Source: Gammaproteobacteria bacterium
Lineage (GTDB): Bacteria; Pseudomonadota; Gammaproteobacteria; Woeseiales; Woeseiaceae
Assembly (NCBI GenBank): GCA_002685275.1
Contig: NYWX01000065.1
Location: 1 to 31,389, forward strand
Reading direction: 5' to 3'
Length of the DNA stretch: 31,389 nucleotides
Positions within the stretch are counted from its first letter, which is position 1. Every line of letters starts with the position of its first letter. The position numbers and the translations under genes were made by a program. The notes under the pieces are model-generated. The model was given only the letters and a program-made list of their open reading frames with translations. It was not told the origin of the DNA and did not search any database. Positions 1 through 23,984 of this stretch are shown here, piece by piece.

Positions 1-1686
1 CATTTATTGATAGATACTTGTGATGCAATGGGTGCTAATTTAGTTAACACCATTTGTGAATCCATAGCACCGGCGCTTGAAAAAATATCAGGTGGAAAAG
101 CTCTACTTAAGATTCTATCCAACTATTCAGATAATTCAGTTTGTTCAGCAATCGTAACCTATAGCCCTAATTGTCTTGCAAATACTTCAATGACAGGCGA
201 AGAAGTTCGTGATCGAATTATTTTAGCAAGTCATATTGCTACCTCCGATGTACATAGAGCAGTAACAAGTAACAAAGGTATAATGAATGGCATAGATGCA
301 CTTGCAATCGCAACAGGAAATGATTGGAGAGCAATTGAAGCTAGTATCCATGCCTTTGCTTCAAAAAATGGACAATATTCAACCCTAACAAAATGGTCAT
401 CCACAGATGACGGTAATTTAATAGGTGAAATTAAAATACCTATAAAGCCTGGCATTGTCGGCGGCAGTTTATTATTAAATCCTGCTGCTAGATTAGGTAT
501 AGCAATTGCTGGTGTTAAAAATGCACAGCAACTTTCAGAATTAATGACTTCCGTTGGTTTAGCTCAAAATTTTGCTGCATTAAAAGCTTTGGTAACTGAT
601 GGCATTCAAAAAGGGCATATGCGCTTGCACGCAAGGAGTGTTGCATCATTAGTAAAAACTCCTAATTATTATTTTGATGATGTCGTTGAAAGATTGGTTG
701 AAAGCAATAATATAAAAGCTTGGAAAGCTGCTGAAATTCTCAAAGATCTTGAATATGAGAGAACATTAAGCTTAGCTAATAATGAGTTTTCAGCAGGAAA
801 AATTATTTTATTTGGAGAGCATGCTGCTGTTTATGATAAACATGCTTTGGCTATTCCTATTATAAAAGCTGTTGGGGCAAATGCTTTACCCTTTAAAGAA
901 GAGACAAAAATTACCATTAGTGAGTGGGGATTAAGTACAACCATTAACCGAAAAGACTATACTGGTGTTAATGGAGTTGTTAATACAATATTCGATGCAC
1001 TTGAGGTAGGTGATTTAAATTTCTTTATTAAAATTTCATCAAGTTTGCCACAAGGTATGGGTTTGGGGTCATCAGCTGCAATAGCAGTGGCAATTATTCG
1101 TGCTGTTGCAAAATCAATTAATATTAGTATTGATAATGAGCGCATAAATCAAATAGCCTTTCAATGTGAGAAATTAGCACACGGCAATCCATCTGGGATT
1201 GATAACACAATTTCTTGCTTTGAAGAACCAATATTATTTCAGAAAAATAAATCCCCAAATTTTGAAATTATAGAACTCAATAATGCACCCCCATTACTAA
1301 TTGGATTTAGCAAGCATTCGAGCCATACTATAAGCCAGGTTTCGAATGTGGGCTCTCGTTATAATAAAAATATTTCTCAATATGAAACTATTTTTGATCA
1401 CATTGATGAACTTAGTTGTAAAGGTGCTGAGGCACTTAAAGCAGGTAATTACAAGGAATTAGGCCAATTAATGAACATTTGTCATGGATTATTGAATGCA
1501 ATAGAAATATCTACTCCTGATCTTGAAAATATAATTAATATCGCACGTGAAAATGGTGCTAGTGGAGCCAAATTAACAGGGTCAGGTGGTGGGGGTTCAG
1601 TTGTAGCATTATGTCCAGATTCTATTGAAGAAGTTCAAAAAGCATTACATCAAGCTGGTTACGAAACCTTAAGACCCAATACTTAA
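1..1686 (+). CDS. HMG-CoA reductase (class II) - mevalonate kinase fusion, 5' partial
   Basis: Two consecutive mevalonate-pathway enzymes in one reading frame, open at the left edge. The first part (to about base 770) is the C-terminal two thirds of a class II (degradative-type) HMG-CoA reductase. It shows DAMGANLVNT near the edge, the catalytic Lys in NKGIMNG (codon 274), the catalytic Asp in GNDWRAIEA (codon 322) and the catalytic His in GHMRLHARS (codon 616). The catalytic Glu lies upstream of the window. After a short linker a complete GHMP-family mevalonate kinase follows: AGKIILFGEHAAVYD at about 795-840, the nucleotide loop PQGMGLGSSAA at 1048-1080, and the glycine-rich motif GAKLTGSGGGG at about 1564-1596. 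No ATG or GTG and only one TTG (694, inside the reductase tail) could restart translation before the kinase, so a true fusion is likely. The isomerase gene starts 14 bp downstream and should be cotranscribed. Confidence 0.93.
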   Translation, partial: HLLIDTCDAMGANLVNTICESIAPALEKISGGKALLKILSNYSDNSVCSAIVTYSPNCLANTSMTGEEVRDRIILASHIATSDVHRAVTSNKGIMNGIDALAIATGNDWRAIEASIHAFASKNGQYSTLTKWSSTDDGNLIGEIKIPIKPGIVGGSLLLNPAARLGIAIAGVKNAQQLSELMTSVGLAQNFAALKALVTDGIQKGHMRLHARSVASLVKTPNYYFDDVVERLVESNNIKAWKAAEILKDLEYERTLSLANNEFSAGKIILFGEHAAVYDKHALAIPIIKAVGANALPFKEETKITISEWGLSTTINRKDYTGVNGVVNTIFDALEVGDLNFFIKISSSLPQGMGLGSSAAIAVAIIRAVAKSINISIDNERINQIAFQCEKLAHGNPSGIDNTISCFEEPILFQKNKSPNFEIIELNNAPPLLIGFSKHSSHTISQVSNVGSRYNKNISQYETIFDHIDELSCKGAEALKAGNYKELGQLMNICHGLLNAIEISTPDLENIINIARENGASGAKLTGSGGGGSVVALCPDSIEEVQKALHQAGYETLRPNT

Positions 1687-1700
1687 AGAGGATCAAATAA

Positions 1701-2270
1701 TTGAATGATTTAAATCGTTTAGTTTCCTCAGAAGGTGAGGAATTAATTTTAGTTGATGATCATGATAATGAAATTGGCTTTCGATCAAAATTTGATTGCC
1801 ACAACGGAGATGGTTTACTACACCGAGCATTTTCAGTATTTTTATTTAATGAAACAGGTCAACTGTTACTTCAGCGAAGAAGTGAAAAAAAAAGGCTCTG
1901 GCCAGGATATTGGTCAAATAGTTGTTGTAGTCATCCTCGTCGAGGCGAGTCATTATCAGTTGCGACGAGGAGGCGTTTAGATGATGAATTAAATGTGTCT
2001 ACTGAGCTCAATTTAATTTATCATTTTAAGTATCAAGCTAATTTTGGAAAAGTAGGATCTGAACATGAGTTATGTCATGTATTTCTGGGAAATTTAAGAG
2101 GCAATGTGCATCCAAATAAAAATGAAATAGAAAGTATTCGATTTATTTCAGTCTGTGAACTGGATTCTGAGCTTACTAGTAGCCCAGAAAAATTTACACC
2201 TTGGTTTATACAGGAGTGGAAAACTCTTCGGGGGAAGTATAATAAGAAACTTGTCGATTATGCGATATAA
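1701..2270 (+). CDS. idi: Isopentenyl-diphosphate delta-isomerase, type I
   Basis: Interconverts IPP and DMAPP, the last step that makes both C5 isoprenoid units. The 189-residue length fits the type I, Nudix-fold, metal-dependent family. The N-terminal half carries LLHRAFSVFLFN, LLLQRRSEKKRLWPGYWSNSCCSHPR and a degenerate Nudix box with RRGES and RRLDDEL. The active-site Cys of the family falls in the SCCSHP segment, and the conserved Glu pair lies further on near GSEHELCHVFLG. Translation starts at TTG 1701 behind an AGAGGA ribosome site at 1687-1692. It lies 14 bp after the reductase-kinase fusion, so it is probably the end of a mevalonate operon entering from the left. The 3' end overlaps the convergent HMG-CoA synthase gene by 13 bp. 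E. coli uses the same enzyme with the MEP pathway; here the neighbours point to mevalonate. Confidence 0.95.
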   Translation: MNDLNRLVSSEGEELILVDDHDNEIGFRSKFDCHNGDGLLHRAFSVFLFNETGQLLLQRRSEKKRLWPGYWSNSCCSHPRRGESLSVATRRRLDDELNVSTELNLIYHFKYQANFGKVGSEHELCHVFLGNLRGNVHPNKNEIESIRFISVCELDSELTSSPEKFTPWFIQEWKTLRGKYNKKLVDYAI

Positions 2271-3742
2271 CGATAATACTCAATACCAAAATCTGAAAAA
2301 TTATCATCATCATTTTTACCAACACAATCGATTACAAATTCGTTATGAGCAACGTATTCAAGATCTTTAATGCATTTACCATTGCGAAGCATTTCATATT
2401 GCTCACAATTTAGGTCAAGCGTTGACTTCATGGCACCAGCAAAGTCAATCTTTGCAGCTGCTTCTTGCCAGTTTTCAGCCATAAAGATGGGAATTATTTC
2501 TGCAGCATCACCACTACCATAACCAAGAGTAAGAACTTCTTCTCCAGGACTTAATGAATTTTTCTGTATTGCTTGTTCAAAACCGGCTGCCATCCATGCT
2601 GGTAGAGCAGCCGTATATAGATTTCCAAGATCGAGCATTGTATTGCTTCCTAAATATAATTTATTTATAACTTCTTTTTGGTAGCAATCTGTTGATCGAA
2701 AAACTTTAAGAACTGTCATTGCCATAGGATAAGCTTCAAGTTGATGTTTATCAGGTTCAGCAAGATCTAATATGTCAGGTTTGCTAATCATTTCTTTTAT
2801 TAAATCATCTTTATTAATATTTGCTTTGAAGCAGTATGAAGTTAATTCTGCCTTATCATTCTCGTTACCTCGGCTTAGAGCAAATAAATAAGATAAGGCT
2901 AAACCAGTTTCTGGCATACGACGATAAGGTCTATGTAAAAATAAGGATCGTAGTGATTTTAAATATCTTATAGAGTTAAGTTTTCTCTTTTCATACATGT
3001 CACTGAGTGCATTAAGGGTCTGATCTAAATAACATGTAACGGAATACTTGCCATTAAATACAGGAAAATCTTGAACATGATGAGTGTCAGAGGGACCTTG
3101 GCCGCAAAAGCGAACCATCGGTTTTCGAAAATCTATAATACGATAATCCGATGCTGATCCAGATTTATTTAAATCAACAATCGCTAACTTCGGATTTTCT
3201 TCGAGCAGCATAGCTACAGCACCGGCTCCTTGGGTTGGTTCACCCGTACTGCCTTGAGCATACTCAGCTATATCTGCACAGACTACGATTGCTTGACTAC
3301 CAGCTCCATCTAATGCGAGATGACGAATAGCGCCTTTCATTCCATAAACACCACCAAGACATGCGTGCTTAAACTCAGGTACTTCACAACTACGAGAAAT
3401 TGGAGCTTTACCTCTAACCTCCATAGCTTTATCAACCATACCTTTAATAATTATTGCGCCAATAGAATTATCTGTGCTTGATTCCGTTCCAAGCCCAAAA
3501 AATTTCACCCTACTTGGATCAATATCATATTGATCAATGAGACGAATTACAGCATTAGCCGCCATAGTATAAATACTATGATTTGGCCCACGCACACGAA
3601 AACTTCGACCGACAACTTCACGGATTTTTGACCAGTCACTATTTGTCCAGTTACACCAATCTTCTAACCACACACGATAGGGTGGTACGTATGCTGCTAA
3701 TCCACTTATTCCGATAGGCTTATTAAAATTAGATGATTTCAT
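2258..3742 (-). CDS. Hydroxymethylglutaryl-CoA synthase
   Basis: Condenses acetyl-CoA with acetoacetyl-CoA to HMG-CoA, the substrate of the reductase encoded at the window start. The thiolase-fold triad can be placed: Glu87 in FFGLGTESSTD, the nucleophile Cys128 in PEFKHACLGGVYG, and His270 in FLHRPYRRM. At 494 residues it is roughly 100 longer than typical bacterial HMG-CoA synthases. The extra length seems to be in the C-terminal half, which ends in an acidic, low-complexity tail (NDDDN). It lies 49 bp downstream of fadE on the same strand, so the two may share an mRNA. The ATG at 3742 has no Shine-Dalgarno in the usual place; an inverted repeat (TGGCG-TT-CGCCA, 3746-3757) occupies it, and the closest purine-rich site (AAGGA, about 3778-3782) is some 35 nt upstream. 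No alternative start exists in frame. Confidence 0.92.
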   Translation of the reverse strand: MKSSNFNKPIGISGLAAYVPPYRVWLEDWCNWTNSDWSKIREVVGRSFRVRGPNHSIYTMAANAVIRLIDQYDIDPSRVKFFGLGTESSTDNSIGAIIIKGMVDKAMEVRGKAPISRSCEVPEFKHACLGGVYGMKGAIRHLALDGAGSQAIVVCADIAEYAQGSTGEPTQGAGAVAMLLEENPKLAIVDLNKSGSASDYRIIDFRKPMVRFCGQGPSDTHHVQDFPVFNGKYSVTCYLDQTLNALSDMYEKRKLNSIRYLKSLRSLFLHRPYRRMPETGLALSYLFALSRGNENDKAELTSYCFKANINKDDLIKEMISKPDILDLAEPDKHQLEAYPMAMTVLKVFRSTDCYQKEVINKLYLGSNTMLDLGNLYTAALPAWMAAGFEQAIQKNSLSPGEEVLTLGYGSGDAAEIIPIFMAENWQEAAAKIDFAGAMKSTLDLNCEQYEMLRNGKCIKDLEYVAHNEFVIDCVGKNDDDNFSDFGIEYYRYIA

Positions 3743-20823: not shown

Positions 20824-20976
20824 TTGAATGAAGAGTTACTTTACCTTTTGATCTTTTTTATTTTCGTGATTGCTTACACTTTTGGAAAGATAATTTCTTA
20901 TATTCGAAAAAGCGAGCTCCAATGGAAACACGTCGATAAAACAAAATTAAAAAGATGGGATAATGATAAAGATTAA
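20824..20976 (+). CDS. Predicted 50-residue single-span membrane protein
   Basis: A short frame starting at TTG 20824 with a good ribosome site (TGGAG at 20811-20815, 8 bp spacing). Residues 4-20 (ELLYLLIFFIFVIAYTF) form a hydrophobic span, followed by a basic, hydrophilic tail with SYIRKSELQWKH and a DND-KD end. The positive residues after the span suggest an N-out/C-in orientation. I do not recognise a family. Its 3' end comes within 9 bp of the poly-A side of the minus-strand terminator, so read-through would run antisense to the structured RNA at 20985-21159. Confidence 0.55.
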   Translation: MNEELLYLLIFFIFVIAYTFGKIISYIRKSELQWKHVDKTKLKRWDNDKD

Positions 20977-20984
20977 TTTTTATC

Positions 20985-21019
20985 AAAAAAAAAGGCGCTA
21001 GAGGTATTCTCTAACGCCT
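20985..21019 (-). terminator. Intrinsic terminator of the sigma-54-controlled small transcript
   Basis: Read on the minus strand, an 11 bp stem with one mismatch (AGGCGTTAGAG, loop AATAC, CTCTAGCGCCT; 21019-20993) is followed by nine T (20993-20985). This is the clearest Rho-independent terminator in the window. On the plus strand there is no T run after the stem, so it serves the minus strand only. Confidence 0.88.
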
Positions 21020-21159
21020 AATAACGGCAGGGGGTTGCCGCTGGACCAAAAAGGTCCATAAATTCACCAAGTAATACTTAGTGAGTTTCGGGGTAATAGC
21101 CAAATAGCAAAGGGGGGAGAGAGATTTGGCATATTAATTCCCGATGGGGTTTTAAACAT
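20985..21159 (-). ncRNA. Candidate structured small RNA / 3' UTR with C-rich hairpin loops
   Basis: Between the stop codon of the 45-residue peptide and its terminator, the minus strand can form four more hairpins in series. H1: GCCAAAT (21130-21124) with ATTTGGC (21105-21099), loop CTCTCTCCCCCCTTTGCT. H2: AACTCAC with GTGAATT (21087-21061), with an inner stem. H3: TGGACC-TTTTT-GGTCCA (21058-21042), perfect. H4: CGGCA-ACCCCC-TGCCG (21040-21025), perfect. Two of the loops expose C runs, as in small RNAs that pair with G-rich ribosome sites. No coding frame accounts for this region. With the peptide gene it would form a transcript of about 350 nt from a sigma-54 promoter. It could act as part of that mRNA or be processed out. 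I recognise no Rfam family. Confidence 0.65.
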
Positions 21160-21297
21160 TTAATTTTGAAGAACGGTATAAATTTCCACAGTACCAATAT
21201 CGCTACCTAAAGCTGTGTTAGCTGCTGCTGATACACCTACAATAATTACTAGTGCTCCAAAAAGAACAAGACCGTTTTCAAAATACTTACTTTTCAT
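21160..21297 (-). CDS. Predicted 45-residue membrane micropeptide under a sigma-54 promoter
   Basis: ATG 21297 lies 7 bp after a TAGGA ribosome site and opens a 45-codon frame ending at TAA 21162-21160. The N-terminus is MKSKYFENG. Residues about 9-30 (GLVLFGALVIIVGVSAAANTAL) form one hydrophobic span that could also act as an uncleaved or late-cleaved signal. A short acidic-polar tail follows (GSDIGTVEIYTVLQN). The start, ribosome site, promoter and terminator are all in register, which makes it more credible than a random short frame. I recognise no family. It is transcribed away from the sigma-54 activator gene, and its mRNA continues into the hairpin region. Confidence 0.7.
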   Translation of the reverse strand: MKSKYFENGLVLFGALVIIVGVSAAANTALGSDIGTVEIYTVLQN

Positions 21298-21347
21298 GAC
21301 AATTTCCTAGATTCATCGAATAACATTTATAAATACAATATCTATAT

Positions 21348-21364
21348 TGCATAAGGTGTGCCAA
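21348..21364 (-). promoter_or_regulatory. Sigma-54 (-24/-12) promoter of the micropeptide/RNA unit
   Basis: The minus strand reads TTGGCACACCTTATGCA from 21364 to 21348. The -24 element TGGCAC is perfect. The -12 element is ATGCA against the consensus TTGCA, and the GG-to-GC spacing is exactly the required 12 bp. Transcription should start near 21337-21339, which gives a 5' UTR of about 40 nt. Confidence 0.85.
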
Positions 21365-21382: not shown

Positions 21383-21395
21383 AAACAAGTACTTA
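21383..21395 (+). promoter_or_regulatory. Possible IHF site between operator and sigma-54 promoter
   Basis: AAACAAGTACTTA matches the IHF consensus WATCAANNNNTTR at every fixed position but one. It lies between the upstream operator repeats and the -24/-12 promoter, where IHF usually bends DNA for sigma-54 activators. The AT-rich setting makes chance matches fairly likely. Confidence 0.4.
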
Positions 21396-21410: not shown

Positions 21411-21462
21411 TTACGTTATTCCGTAAATAACGAAAAACCGTAATATTATTTACGAAATTACG
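21411..21462. promoter_or_regulatory. Upstream activating sequence with repeated CGTAA/TTACG half-sites
   Basis: Five half-sites occur in 52 bp: TTACG at 21411 and CGTAA at 21422 (inverted, six-base centre), CGTAA at 21439 and TTACG at 21450 (inverted, six-base centre), and TTACG at 21458. Each pair is spaced 11 bp, one helix turn. A further perfect dyad, CGTTATT-CCGTA-AATAACG, covers 21414-21432. The cluster centres about 95 bp upstream of the predicted sigma-54 start and just upstream of the activator gene. It could therefore serve both activation of the small unit and autoregulation. Confidence 0.7.
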
Positions 21463-21483
21463 CAAATTTTATGAAAAATGTTA

Positions 21484-21495: not shown

Positions 21496-23298
21496 ATGAC
21501 TACTCAAAATGATTATCAATGGTTATTTAGGAAATCACCGTCAATGGCAACTTCCATAGCTGAAGATGGTGTTTATTTAGATGTTAATGACTTTATGCTC
21601 AATAGATTAGGTTATGAGCGCGAAGAAATGGTTGGTCGGACCCCAGAAGACTTTACAACTAAAGAAAGTGCTGTACGCATAAGGGATGAATTAAAGCCTG
21701 CATTAAGACGAACTGGTAAGTTAGAAAACAAACCTATCAGTTTTGTTACAAAATCTGGGGATGTAGTGGATTGCACTTCTAATGCTATTGTTGAGTTTGA
21801 TCAAAAAGGCGAATACCTTAGGACAGTCGCAATGTATGCTGAAGTTTCTGATCAAGCAAAAGCAAATTTTAAATATCGTACACTTTATCGCGCTACACCA
21901 GCAATGCTCCACACTGTAAATGGCGATGGTTTAATTGTAACAGTTACTGATCACTGGCTTCAAAAACTTGGTTTTCGAAGAGATGAGGTAATTGGACGAC
22001 CAATAACGGATTTCTTTTCCACTCGTGATAGTGAATATTATGCTGACGGTCGATTAAGTGAGCTTATAAGTAATGGTGATTTCAATAATCTTGAACGTCA
22101 AATGATTACAAAAGATGGTGTTATTCTTGACTTAGTGATGTCAGCAATATCACACCGCGATGAAAACGGCAATGTAGATCGAATGCTTGTTGCCTCAAAA
22201 GATGTAACTGAACGGCGAAAAGCTGAAAGAGAATTACGAGAGACTCTTGACGAAAATAAACGTCTCCACAAAGAGCTAGAGCAGGAGCGTGATTATCTTC
22301 GTGAAGAAGTGAATGTTGCTATGAACTTTGGGCGTATTGTTGGTACAAGCTCTACTTTACGTCAGATGATGAAAAGAGTAGAAGCGGTCTCAGAAACCCC
22401 AGCTAATGTATTAATTCAAGGTGAGTCCGGTGTTGGCAAAGAACTAGTTGCACATGCTATTCATGTTCAAAGTTCTCGTGCCAATGGTCCTTTGGTTAAA
22501 GTGAATTGTGCTTCAATTCCAAAAGAATTATTTGAAAGTGAATTTTTTGGTCATTTGAAAGGCGCCTTCACTGGCGCTCACCGTGATCGTATAGGACGAT
22601 TTCATTTGGCCGATGGCGGTAGTATTTTTTTGGATGAAGTTAGTGAAATCCCTATGGAGCTTCAGGGCAAGTTATTAAGAGTTCTTCAGGAAAGTGAATT
22701 TGAAAGAGTTGGTGATGATGTTACTCGTAGTGTTGATGTTCGTGTAATAGCAGCAACAAATAGAGATTTAAAAAAATCCATTATTGATGGTGAATTCCGT
22801 GAAGATCTATTTTATCGACTAAGCGTATTTCCAATCGATGTTCCGCCTCTAAGAGACCGCGGCGATGATATTCTTCAGTTGGCCCAGCATTTTCTTGAGC
22901 AGACTTGCTTAGACTTTAGTCGAGATGTGCTTACACTGACACAAGCGCAAGCAGTTAATTTAAGATCTTATGATTGGCCAGGAAATGTGCGTGAACTAAA
23001 GAACGTTATTGAACGTGCGGTCATACTTTCAACAGGTAAGGTGCTCCGCCTTGATTTATCTATGCCTGAACTAAAAACTGACATTTATGCAGTTAAAAAA
23101 GCAGATGATTTTAAAAGTGAAGTTATGAGCGAAAATCAAATGAAAGATTTCCAAAGAAAAAATCTTAAAAGAGCTCTTCAGCTTACAAATTGGAAAGTAT
23201 CTGGAGCTGGTGGAGCAGCCGAACTTCTTGGTATTCGTCCTACAACGCTTGCTGACAGAATAAAAGCGTTTAAATTTAAAAAGCCAACTTCTAAATGA
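21496..23298 (+). CDS. Sigma-54-dependent transcriptional activator with two PAS domains
   Basis: An enhancer-binding protein. Two PAS folds (residues about 10-125 and 130-245 counted from the upstream ATG 21478) are followed by a coiled coil (RELRETLDENKRLHKELEQERDYL written in two parts: RELRETLDENKR, LHKELEQERDYL), an AAA+ domain and a Fis-type helix-turn-helix (about 560-597, LQLTNWKVSGAGGAAELLGI). Walker A is GESGVGKE (315-322), the sigma-54 contact loop GAFTGA (362-367), and Walker B GGSIFLDE (380-387). There is no receiver domain, so control is probably through ligand, redox or partner sensing by PAS. The start could be 21478 or 21496; neither has a ribosome site, and 21496 is favoured by the TATAAT before it. 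The gene is divergent from a sigma-54 promoter with operator repeats between, and its end overlaps the next gene by ATGA. The signal is unknown. Confidence 0.93.
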   Translation: MTTQNDYQWLFRKSPSMATSIAEDGVYLDVNDFMLNRLGYEREEMVGRTPEDFTTKESAVRIRDELKPALRRTGKLENKPISFVTKSGDVVDCTSNAIVEFDQKGEYLRTVAMYAEVSDQAKANFKYRTLYRATPAMLHTVNGDGLIVTVTDHWLQKLGFRRDEVIGRPITDFFSTRDSEYYADGRLSELISNGDFNNLERQMITKDGVILDLVMSAISHRDENGNVDRMLVASKDVTERRKAERELRETLDENKRLHKELEQERDYLREEVNVAMNFGRIVGTSSTLRQMMKRVEAVSETPANVLIQGESGVGKELVAHAIHVQSSRANGPLVKVNCASIPKELFESEFFGHLKGAFTGAHRDRIGRFHLADGGSIFLDEVSEIPMELQGKLLRVLQESEFERVGDDVTRSVDVRVIAATNRDLKKSIIDGEFREDLFYRLSVFPIDVPPLRDRGDDILQLAQHFLEQTCLDFSRDVLTLTQAQAVNLRSYDWPGNVRELKNVIERAVILSTGKVLRLDLSMPELKTDIYAVKKADDFKSEVMSENQMKDFQRKNLKRALQLTNWKVSGAGGAAELLGIRPTTLADRIKAFKFKKPTSK

Positions 23299-23984
23299 GA
23301 AAAATTATACGTTGGATTATTTATTTTACTACTTTCATTTTTCTGGCTGTAAGTCTTTATTATTTGCCATTTGATAGCTTAATTAATTACTTAGCAATAA
23401 TAGTTGAAAAGTATCCAACGGCGAGTCCATTAATGTATGTTCTCTTGGTAATAGTTGGAATTATTTTATTTTTACCAGGTTCAATTGCGATGATGGTAAG
23501 TGGTTTTTTATTTGGTTTTTCACAGGGAGTTTTGTTTGCGGTTATTGGTATTTCTCTTGGTTCACAAGCTGCATTTGAAAGTGGCAGAAGGATAGCAAGA
23601 CCTTGGGTAAAGAAAAAAATAGCAGCCAGTGAACGGATACAAGCAATTGAGTTGGCACTCCAAGAAAAAGCTTTCGTAATCATAGCTCTAACAAGATTAT
23701 CATTAATTATTCCATTTAATATTTTAAATTACATTTATGGCGCGTCCCCAGTAAAATCTAGTATTCACTTTATTGCTACTATTATTGGTATGTTGCCTGC
23801 TATAACTTTGTATGTTTATCTTGGTACTTTTGCTAGAGATATTAATCAAATTTTATCTAAAGAAGCCCCGTCATCGGACTTAGGTGATTGGGTAATTTTT
23901 GCAGGAATTATTCTTATAATAATCACCACTTGGGTAATCCATAAAGCAGCTTCAAAAGCATTAGAGAAACATGTTAGTGATTAA
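23295..23984 (+). CDS. TVP38/TMEM64 (VTT domain) family membrane protein
   Basis: A 229-residue inner-membrane protein with about five hydrophobic segments. The VTT/DedA-like signature is present: ILFLPGSIAMMVSGFLFGFSQG (as ILFLPGSIAMM and SGFLFGFSQG, about residues 56-77), LGSQAAFESGR, and later ALTRLSLIIPFNILNYIYGAS. It ends in a C-terminal span. Family members are proposed lipid scramblases or undecaprenyl-phosphate/small-molecule transport factors; a specific role is not established for this branch. The ATG overlaps the stop of the sigma-54 activator gene (ATGA), so it should be cotranscribed and translationally coupled. Its membrane function may thus connect to the signal sensed by the activator. 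Confidence 0.9.
   Translation: MRKIIRWIIYFTTFIFLAVSLYYLPFDSLINYLAIIVEKYPTASPLMYVLLVIVGIILFLPGSIAMMVSGFLFGFSQGVLFAVIGISLGSQAAFESGRRIARPWVKKKIAASERIQAIELALQEKAFVIIALTRLSLIIPFNILNYIYGASPVKSSIHFIATIIGMLPAITLYVYLGTFARDINQILSKEAPSSDLGDWVIFAGIILIIITTWVIHKAASKALEKHVSD

Follow-up and report, generated by a model that had tools for sequence, protein, structure and literature searches.

The gene for a PAS-domain sigma-54 activator on a Woeseiaceae contig faces a short stretch of minus-strand DNA that carries both a small open reading frame and a series of hairpins. Is the product of that strand a messenger for a small protein, a regulatory RNA or both, and which part of it has been kept among relatives? 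The window analysed here, the whole stretch of 31,389 nucleotides around this locus, is AT-rich (35% GC).

Locus layout, activator and promoter

Along the minus strand, three palindromic sites are followed by an IHF-like stretch, a -24/-12 box, an AGGA sequence, a 45-codon ORF, four hairpins (P1–P4) and an intrinsic terminator ending near 20985 (Table 1). The predicted transcript is about 350 nt long, with its start (near 21337) and end both predicted from the letters, and is divergent from the gene of a PAS-PAS-AAA-Fis sigma-54 activator. A sequence-only reading of this DNA had listed a near-consensus promoter, a 45-codon frame with a ribosome site, four hairpins with an intrinsic terminator, and a sigma-54 activator gene that they face. 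Each of these elements is present: the promoter differs from the consensus at one position and is kept in relatives, AGGA precedes a complete frame, the hairpins and terminator form in the minimum-energy fold, and the divergent protein contains GAFTGA. Absent from that list are the most informative parts of the locus: the C-rich loops, the three palindromes upstream and the IHF-like site.

Table 1. Positions of the elements of the locus in the window
Feature	Position	Strand	Basis and detail
Activator-type site 1, GCG-N6-CGT	21452..21463	-	sequence pattern; one base off ACG-N6-CGT
Activator-type site 2, ACG-N6-CGT	21430..21441	-	sequence pattern
Activator-type site 3, ACG-N6-CGT	21413..21424	-	sequence pattern
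IHF-like site TAAGTACTTGTTT	21383..21395	-	TAA.t..tTGTTTT conserved in family consensus
-24/-12 promoter TGGCAC-N5-ATGCA, TGGCACACCTTATGCA	21348..21363	-	one mismatch to TGGCAC-N5-TTGCW
Shine-Dalgarno AGGA	21305..21308	-	sequence
Predicted 45-aa small protein MKSKYFENGLVLFGALVIIVGVSAAANTALGSDIGTVEIYTVLQN	21160..21297	-	ATG 21297, stop 21160; 29 homologues; purifying selection; signal-peptide or single-TM like (by eye)
Hairpin P1	21088..21144	-	fold and covariation; loop with CUCUCUCCCCCC at 21123-21112
Hairpin P2	21064..21084	-	fold; GGA in loop in 43/55 aligned rows, not in window
Hairpin P3	21042..21058	-	fold; loop GGA in 39/55 aligned rows, UUUUU in window
Hairpin P4	21024..21041	-	fold; C-rich loop CCCCC at 21034-21030
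Intrinsic terminator, 11-bp stem and T-run	20985..21019	-	stem 21019-20993, then eight T
Sigma-54 activator (enhancer-binding protein), 600 aa	21496..23298	+	domain matches; PAS-PAS-AAA+(GAFTGA)-Fis HTH
VTT-domain (DedA-type) membrane protein gene	23295..23984	+	overlaps activator 3' end by 4 nt; context, perhaps outside unit

The activator frame ends at 23298 and has two candidate starts, 21478 and 21496. We take the latter because most homologues among the matches listed are 598–603 residues long, compared with 606 for a protein starting at 21478. Homologues reach 88% identity, and one is named from Woeseia sp. Its PAS region matches solved structures weakly (best E 0.00036), and the protein may sense its signal through this region. 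A search for sigma-54 was positive in 10 of 10 genomes, and the activator-like matches returned by a plasmid search all lie below 60% identity. The VTT-domain gene adjoins the activator gene in 9 of 9 close relatives that have space for it. In 20 distant loci, 17 of them outside the family and 3 within it, the roughly 0.9 kb downstream of the activator gave no VTT match, and we rejected the gene as a fixed part of the unit. On the other side, a 50-codon ORF that starts with TTG and would encode a small membrane-like protein (20824-20976, plus strand) faces the terminator. It has a tblastn match in 8 of 10 related loci at 42–56% identity and lies farther from the RNA there, so that it looks like an independent conserved small gene.

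Throughout, family and order mean the ones to which G001 belongs, the genome that contains locus L008 (Woeseiaceae bacterium OFTM48). The activator occurs in 93 of 107 family (Woeseiaceae) genomes (E up to 1e-110) and in 157 of 396 genomes of the order (E up to 1e-150). A sample of the class yielded it in 2 of 369 genomes (E up to 1e-170), both of them also in the order sample, and the unit looks confined to the order as sampled. Upstream DNA was taken for all 93 family loci, a few of whose activator copies are split over contigs or frames or contain a stop, and for 40 loci outside the family, of which 39 were long enough to be checked for the promoter and 38 for the loops. The sampled genomes are related, so the counts given below are not independent events, and many are draft assemblies.

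As a sequence match alone the promoter is not significant: the window holds 17 sites with at most two mismatches against 14.7 in shuffles, and three sites with a single mismatch to TGGCAC-N5-TTGCW. Its significance comes instead from conservation across loci. The family loci (93/93) and all 39 readable loci outside the family have a promoter that matches at 9 or more of the 11 scored positions. As placed, the box lies about 110–135 bp from the activator start in 92 of the 93, the exception being G049, where the activator match begins only at residue 135. The sequence-only reading would have been contradicted by orthologous activator loci lacking the promoter and hairpins; the comparison came out in its favour.

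Between activator and promoter lie the three palindromes, spaced 22 and 17 bp apart, to which the activator would bind. Allowing up to two mismatches, the triple-site pattern occurs in 47 of 61 family genomes; it is absent from the 11 genomes of this set without the activator and was not found in three that have it (G068, G073 and G107). Matches with no or one mismatch number 48 in the 61 genomes, 47 of them within the activator upstream region and the last on a G080 contig that also carries the peptide and RNA matches of that genome. The remaining 10 matches have two mismatches, a tolerance at which a reversed-pattern control also matches many genomes. Since no other place in the 61 genomes matches the triple sites with 0–1 mismatch, the activator looks dedicated to this transcript. 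The stretch at 21383..21395 resembles the IHF consensus and may be an IHF site. The locus therefore has what is found in sigma-54-dependent small RNA systems: a -24/-12 promoter before the RNA, enhancer-type sites upstream, here putative, and an activator with GAFTGA.

Conserved structure and C-rich loops of the predicted RNA

The 3' part of the predicted transcript (20980-21157, minus strand) folds at minimum energy into the four hairpins and the terminator, with a free energy of -65.3 kcal/mol (z -8.97) that 0 of 200 shuffles equalled. The z-score of the whole 358-nt predicted transcript is -4.62. Across 93 3' regions (92 of the family plus the window) the median is -3.8; 81 fall below -2 and 12 do not, and the window itself scores -8.2. 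Stability beyond that of shuffled sequences is thus present in many relatives and modest in size.

Covariation is clearest in P1. The alignments derive from a core set of 80 of the 94 loci, selected by a P4 pattern. In 30 aligned loci the P1–P4 cores contain 18 consensus pairs, nine of them with two-sided changes. The P1 alignment comprises 45 of 55 rows, ten unlike rows having been left out by hand, and in it 89.7% of stem cells are paired against 79.2 in shuffles, a level reached by 0 of 500. Cells with two-sided change number 56 against 15.5 in shuffles, and 0 of 500 shuffles reach that number or the covariation score; slid controls pair at 15–56%. The number of P1 pairs with a two-sided change (8 of 11) is reached by 31 of 500 shuffles and gives no separation from them.

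The P3 and P4 stems were aligned together in 55 of the 80 loci (54 distinct rows). Pairing reaches 98.1%, with 21 two-sided cells against 5.1 (0/500 shuffles) and two-sided change in 4 of 11 pairs (2/500 shuffles); the pair types, reached by 144 of 500 shuffles, give no separation. These stems are weaker evidence than P1 because the pattern used to select the rows already favours pairing in P3 and P4 and because P4 hardly varies in these rows. P2 was not counted for covariation, as the automatic alignment mixes registers there.

A covariance model of the RNA (R1), seeded with 30 hand-chosen core loci, recovers 86 of the 94 loci at E up to 0.1, or 56 of 64 when the seed sequences are excluded, and gives the window 80.1 bits; one of the eight missed loci is a stub. 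With stricter filters and eight scored candidates per genome, a search of the 396 order genomes returned 77 matches, spread over 76 genomes of which 29 had supplied seeds. All but two of these (75/77) lie within the activator upstream region, and the two are on other contigs of G052 and G080. Searches of Rfam gave only chance-level matches in the window region and in 8 relatives, the best in the relatives being suhB at E 0.044, below the gathering score.

The terminator search gave one hit where 0.4 is expected. Many relatives, among the loci listed (e.g. L081, L083 and L085), carry a conserved branched insert resembling GGAGACCGCTCCGTGTCGGATCGGCCCGCTGA in the terminator stem; in the window and in several near relatives the terminator is short and simple.

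CCCC stands in a hairpin loop in 93/93 3' regions, compared with 17–19 in three shuffled sets, and at least two loops with CCC are present in 81 of 93 against 5–13. Outside the family, 35 of 38 loci have a CCCC loop (5–13 in shuffles) and 22 of 38 have at least two CCC loops (4–7 in shuffles). Stems vary and the C runs are kept, as expected of a displayed seed.

A target scan over 800 kb of two relatives found predicted pairings of the P1 seed at or below -12 kcal/mol with 33 of 688 translation starts against 12 of 688 positions inside genes. The reversed seed gave 22 against 12, for which reason the scan cannot carry the step of pairing at translation starts. At -14 kcal/mol the numbers are 13 against 5 for the P1 seed and 6 against 5 for the reversed seed, a modest and not specific excess. 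One of the best predicted pairings of the P1 loop is with a GGGGGGAAA stretch near 57562 of G055:C21 (L259), before an 883-residue frame whose N-terminus, by eye, resembles a TonB-dependent receptor.

The predicted small protein

Relatives of the 45-residue protein were found in 60 of 107 family genomes (E up to 0.01), and in 60/60 of them the frame lies divergently beside the activator with a gap of 73–209 bp. Peptide relatives also lie in MAGs named Woeseiaceae, Gammaproteobacteria or Proteobacteria, and a search of viral contigs found none. By script, an ORF of 30–108 codons could be picked in 92 of 93 family loci and in the window, G080 being cut by a contig end; some of the picked ORFs may have wrong starts. 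Their lengths are spread widely, 10 of 93 having at most 34 codons, 19 having 44–47 and 47 having at least 80.

The pooled pN/pS of 0.32 (pS 0.351, pN 0.112) derives from 22 hand-chosen pairs with genomes reused, two of them saturated, of which one (G084/G088) probably has wrong starts, and indicates that the ORF is under purifying selection. Selection on the ORF, whose translation is predicted, is what a dual-function RNA would display in its sequence. Most family ORFs begin with a basic N-terminus followed by a hydrophobic stretch that ends in A-x-A-like residues, and the product looks like a Sec signal-peptide or one-TM protein when read by eye. The sequence-only reading had called it a membrane peptide; a Sec signal peptide is the other possibility besides a single transmembrane segment. 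Pfam searches with two other small proteins and with P0001 gave nothing significant (best Pilin_N, E 0.13).

Outside the family most of the small proteins are dissimilar. Four of 38 loci there (G204, G145, G195 and G219) lack an ATG ORF of 26–150 codons with an SD-like sequence; GTG or TTG frames are present without such a sequence, in G219 along with ATG frames. In these four, C-rich hairpins directly follow the promoter and the terminator lies near +170. We take the RNA to be the constant part because the ORF varies while these loci keep the C-rich hairpins and terminator, and such relatives give indirect support to an RNA that acts apart from the peptide. A membrane peptide and a structured RNA had been proposed as the two products of one transcript. 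Both do lie on a single predicted transcript, but not as equal partners.

Several unrelated small proteins (L197, L198, L201 and some other outside-family loci) have a sequence of the form EEIVVxG or EEVTVDG just past the hydrophobic N-terminus, which resembles a TonB box.

Probable mechanism, alternatives and related RNAs

Sequence comparison supports the promoter, the upstream sites, the conserved structure and loops, a coding ORF and the exclusive linkage of these elements. The reading that we consider probable is a sigma-54-dependent RNA unit with C-rich loops and a dedicated activator, acting in the manner of sX13 on G-rich translation starts and co-transcribed with a small exported or membrane protein. 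The PAS-domain activator would respond to a signal and bind the three palindromes just upstream, and DNA bending, probably by IHF, would carry it to the -24/-12 box and the sigma-54 RNA polymerase there. A single transcript of about 350 nt would then be made, stopped at the intrinsic terminator and possibly split into mRNA and sRNA. Its 3' part would be a small RNA whose hairpins display C-rich loops (CUCUCCCCC; CCCCCC), and these may pair in trans with G-rich sequence at the ribosome-binding sites of target mRNAs and so lower translation. The 5' part is predicted to encode the small protein, which may be exported and have a separate or auxiliary function.

The hairpin loops also allow an RNA that titrates CsrA/RsmA through GGA in P2 and P3, as a sponge or as a mixed pairing and CsrA RNA with the C-rich loops secondary. 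Sponges of the CsrB/RsmZ type carry GGA in hairpin loops, and many relatives resemble them: besides the P2 and P3 counts of Table 1, a GGA hairpin loop is present in 60 of 93 3' regions against 11–20 in shuffles and in 14 of 38 loci outside the family against 3–6, and CsrA was found in 9 of 10 genomes. There are few such sites per RNA, however, and GGA is absent from the P1–P4 and terminator loops of the window; outside the family the 14/38 loci with GGA contrast with the 35/38 that have a CCCC loop. We did not adopt a CsrA sponge as the main reading because of the window loops, and consider it unlikely. Similar doubt attaches to a plain mRNA for the small protein with the hairpins as a stabilising 3' UTR. 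An ORF nearly everywhere in the family and its low pN/pS are what such a message would have, but the protein is the variable part of the unit, the four outside loci without an SD-preceded ATG ORF keep promoter, C-rich hairpins and terminator, and stability would not require conserved single-stranded C runs.

Loops and ORF share a transcript, and the C-rich loops are complementary in sequence to purine-rich ribosome sites, so they could act in cis, for example adjusting how much peptide is made by pairing with the ribosome site of the adjoining ORF or by binding ribosomes. With an SD in the window that is merely AGGA, and with loops kept in loci that have no convincing ORF, we regard this as very improbable. 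Chance hairpins beside a chance promoter-like site have a negligible probability: a promoter match of this quality is by itself nothing rare within the window, but conservation in 93/93 and 39/39 loci, covariation and exclusive linkage refute a chance origin. A variant in which the ORF serves as an address tag, its translated signal peptide or one-TM stub drawing the transcript to the membrane so that the C-rich loops act on mRNAs for exported or envelope proteins translated there, would account for an encoded part that can be as short as about 30 residues, stopping close to the hydrophobic stretch, or differ wholly in sequence, and yet usually starts in an export-like way. We hold it to be speculative and unlikely.

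The favoured reading, a C-rich-loop RNA under sigma-54 control, can be set beside several known RNAs. Qrr, GlmY/GlmZ and CrcZ are sigma-54-dependent sRNAs controlled by an enhancer-binding protein, with two-component activators and no ORF. Sigma-54 dependence and the enhancer-binding protein are alike here; the differences are the ORF, the structure with its C-rich loops and the one-component PAS activator. SgrS/SgrT is a dual-function RNA with a small ORF and a regulatory RNA in one transcript, as at this locus, but in the present unit lineages differ by replacement or loss of the ORF, and the promoter and activator are of another type.

The nearest parallel is sX13 of the Xanthomonadaceae. 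The portion of its description available (PMC3771888) presents a 115-nt RNA downstream of polA for which Hfq is dispensable, with three apical C-rich loops that repress mRNAs carrying G-rich motifs near translation starts. Both RNAs are intergenic and form stable hairpins with apical C-rich loops; pairing at G-rich starts is shown for sX13 and proposed here. No sigma-54 promoter, dedicated activator or ORF is reported for sX13 in that portion (PMC3771888). A Pfam scan of 27 of the window's 34 listed ORFs found no polA, and the RNA lies by the activator, a location unlike that of sX13. Rfam gave no sX13 match with E limits of 5 for the window region and 1 for 8 relatives, though Rfam may not include sX13. 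C-rich apical motifs also occur, as the same excerpt has it, in Staphylococcus aureus and Helicobacter RNAs and in alpha-r7 RNAs (PMC3771888), which differ by description in organism, locus and control.

GlnZ, in the excerpt of its paper (PMC9731577), is a 3'UTR sRNA of glnA. It is carried on an enzyme mRNA that NtrC controls, and it depends on Hfq and RNase E. It resembles the present transcript in being sigma-54-dependent, with a coding part, a 3' regulatory RNA and an intrinsic terminator (PMC9731577, same excerpt). The enzyme mRNA and NtrC contrast with the tiny ORF and dedicated activator found here. For NcS25, the excerpt of PMC10117139 offers no C-rich-loop match. Open-access papers yielded nothing on Woeseia with sigma-54, on an RpoN-dependent C-rich-loop sRNA or on a relevant Woeseiaceae small RNA; what they otherwise returned were general sRNA and sigma-54 papers.

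Sigma-54-dependent sRNAs, C-rich-loop sRNAs and small-ORF RNAs are each known separately. What appears to be new is their combination under a PAS activator that apparently has a single promoter, with an ORF that is interchangeable and sometimes missing. The earlier claim of an analogous but undescribed sigma-54 unit beside its own activator agrees with the comparison, with Rfam and with the papers searched; the two parts of that claim that go further, sensing through PAS and a dual function of the transcript, we infer.

The unit would be an additional regulatory RNA family, spread through the majority of the genomes sampled from a family of marine bacteria. Its circuit would be unusually clean, with a single sensor protein, a single enhancer array and a single transcript in almost all genomes that have it. 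The RNA appears to be held constant while the co-transcribed protein is shortened, replaced or lost, which would provide a natural series for studying the origin of dual-function RNAs and which of their halves is important. A further suggestion is that RNAs with C-rich loops directed against ribosome sites can be found under transcriptional controls of quite different kinds.

Elsewhere in the window, positions 7-3742 encode part of an HMG-CoA reductase followed by a GHMP kinase in one frame, then a NUDIX protein and an HMG-CoA synthase. These genes are of the mevalonate-pathway type, which is unusual for a gammaproteobacterium.
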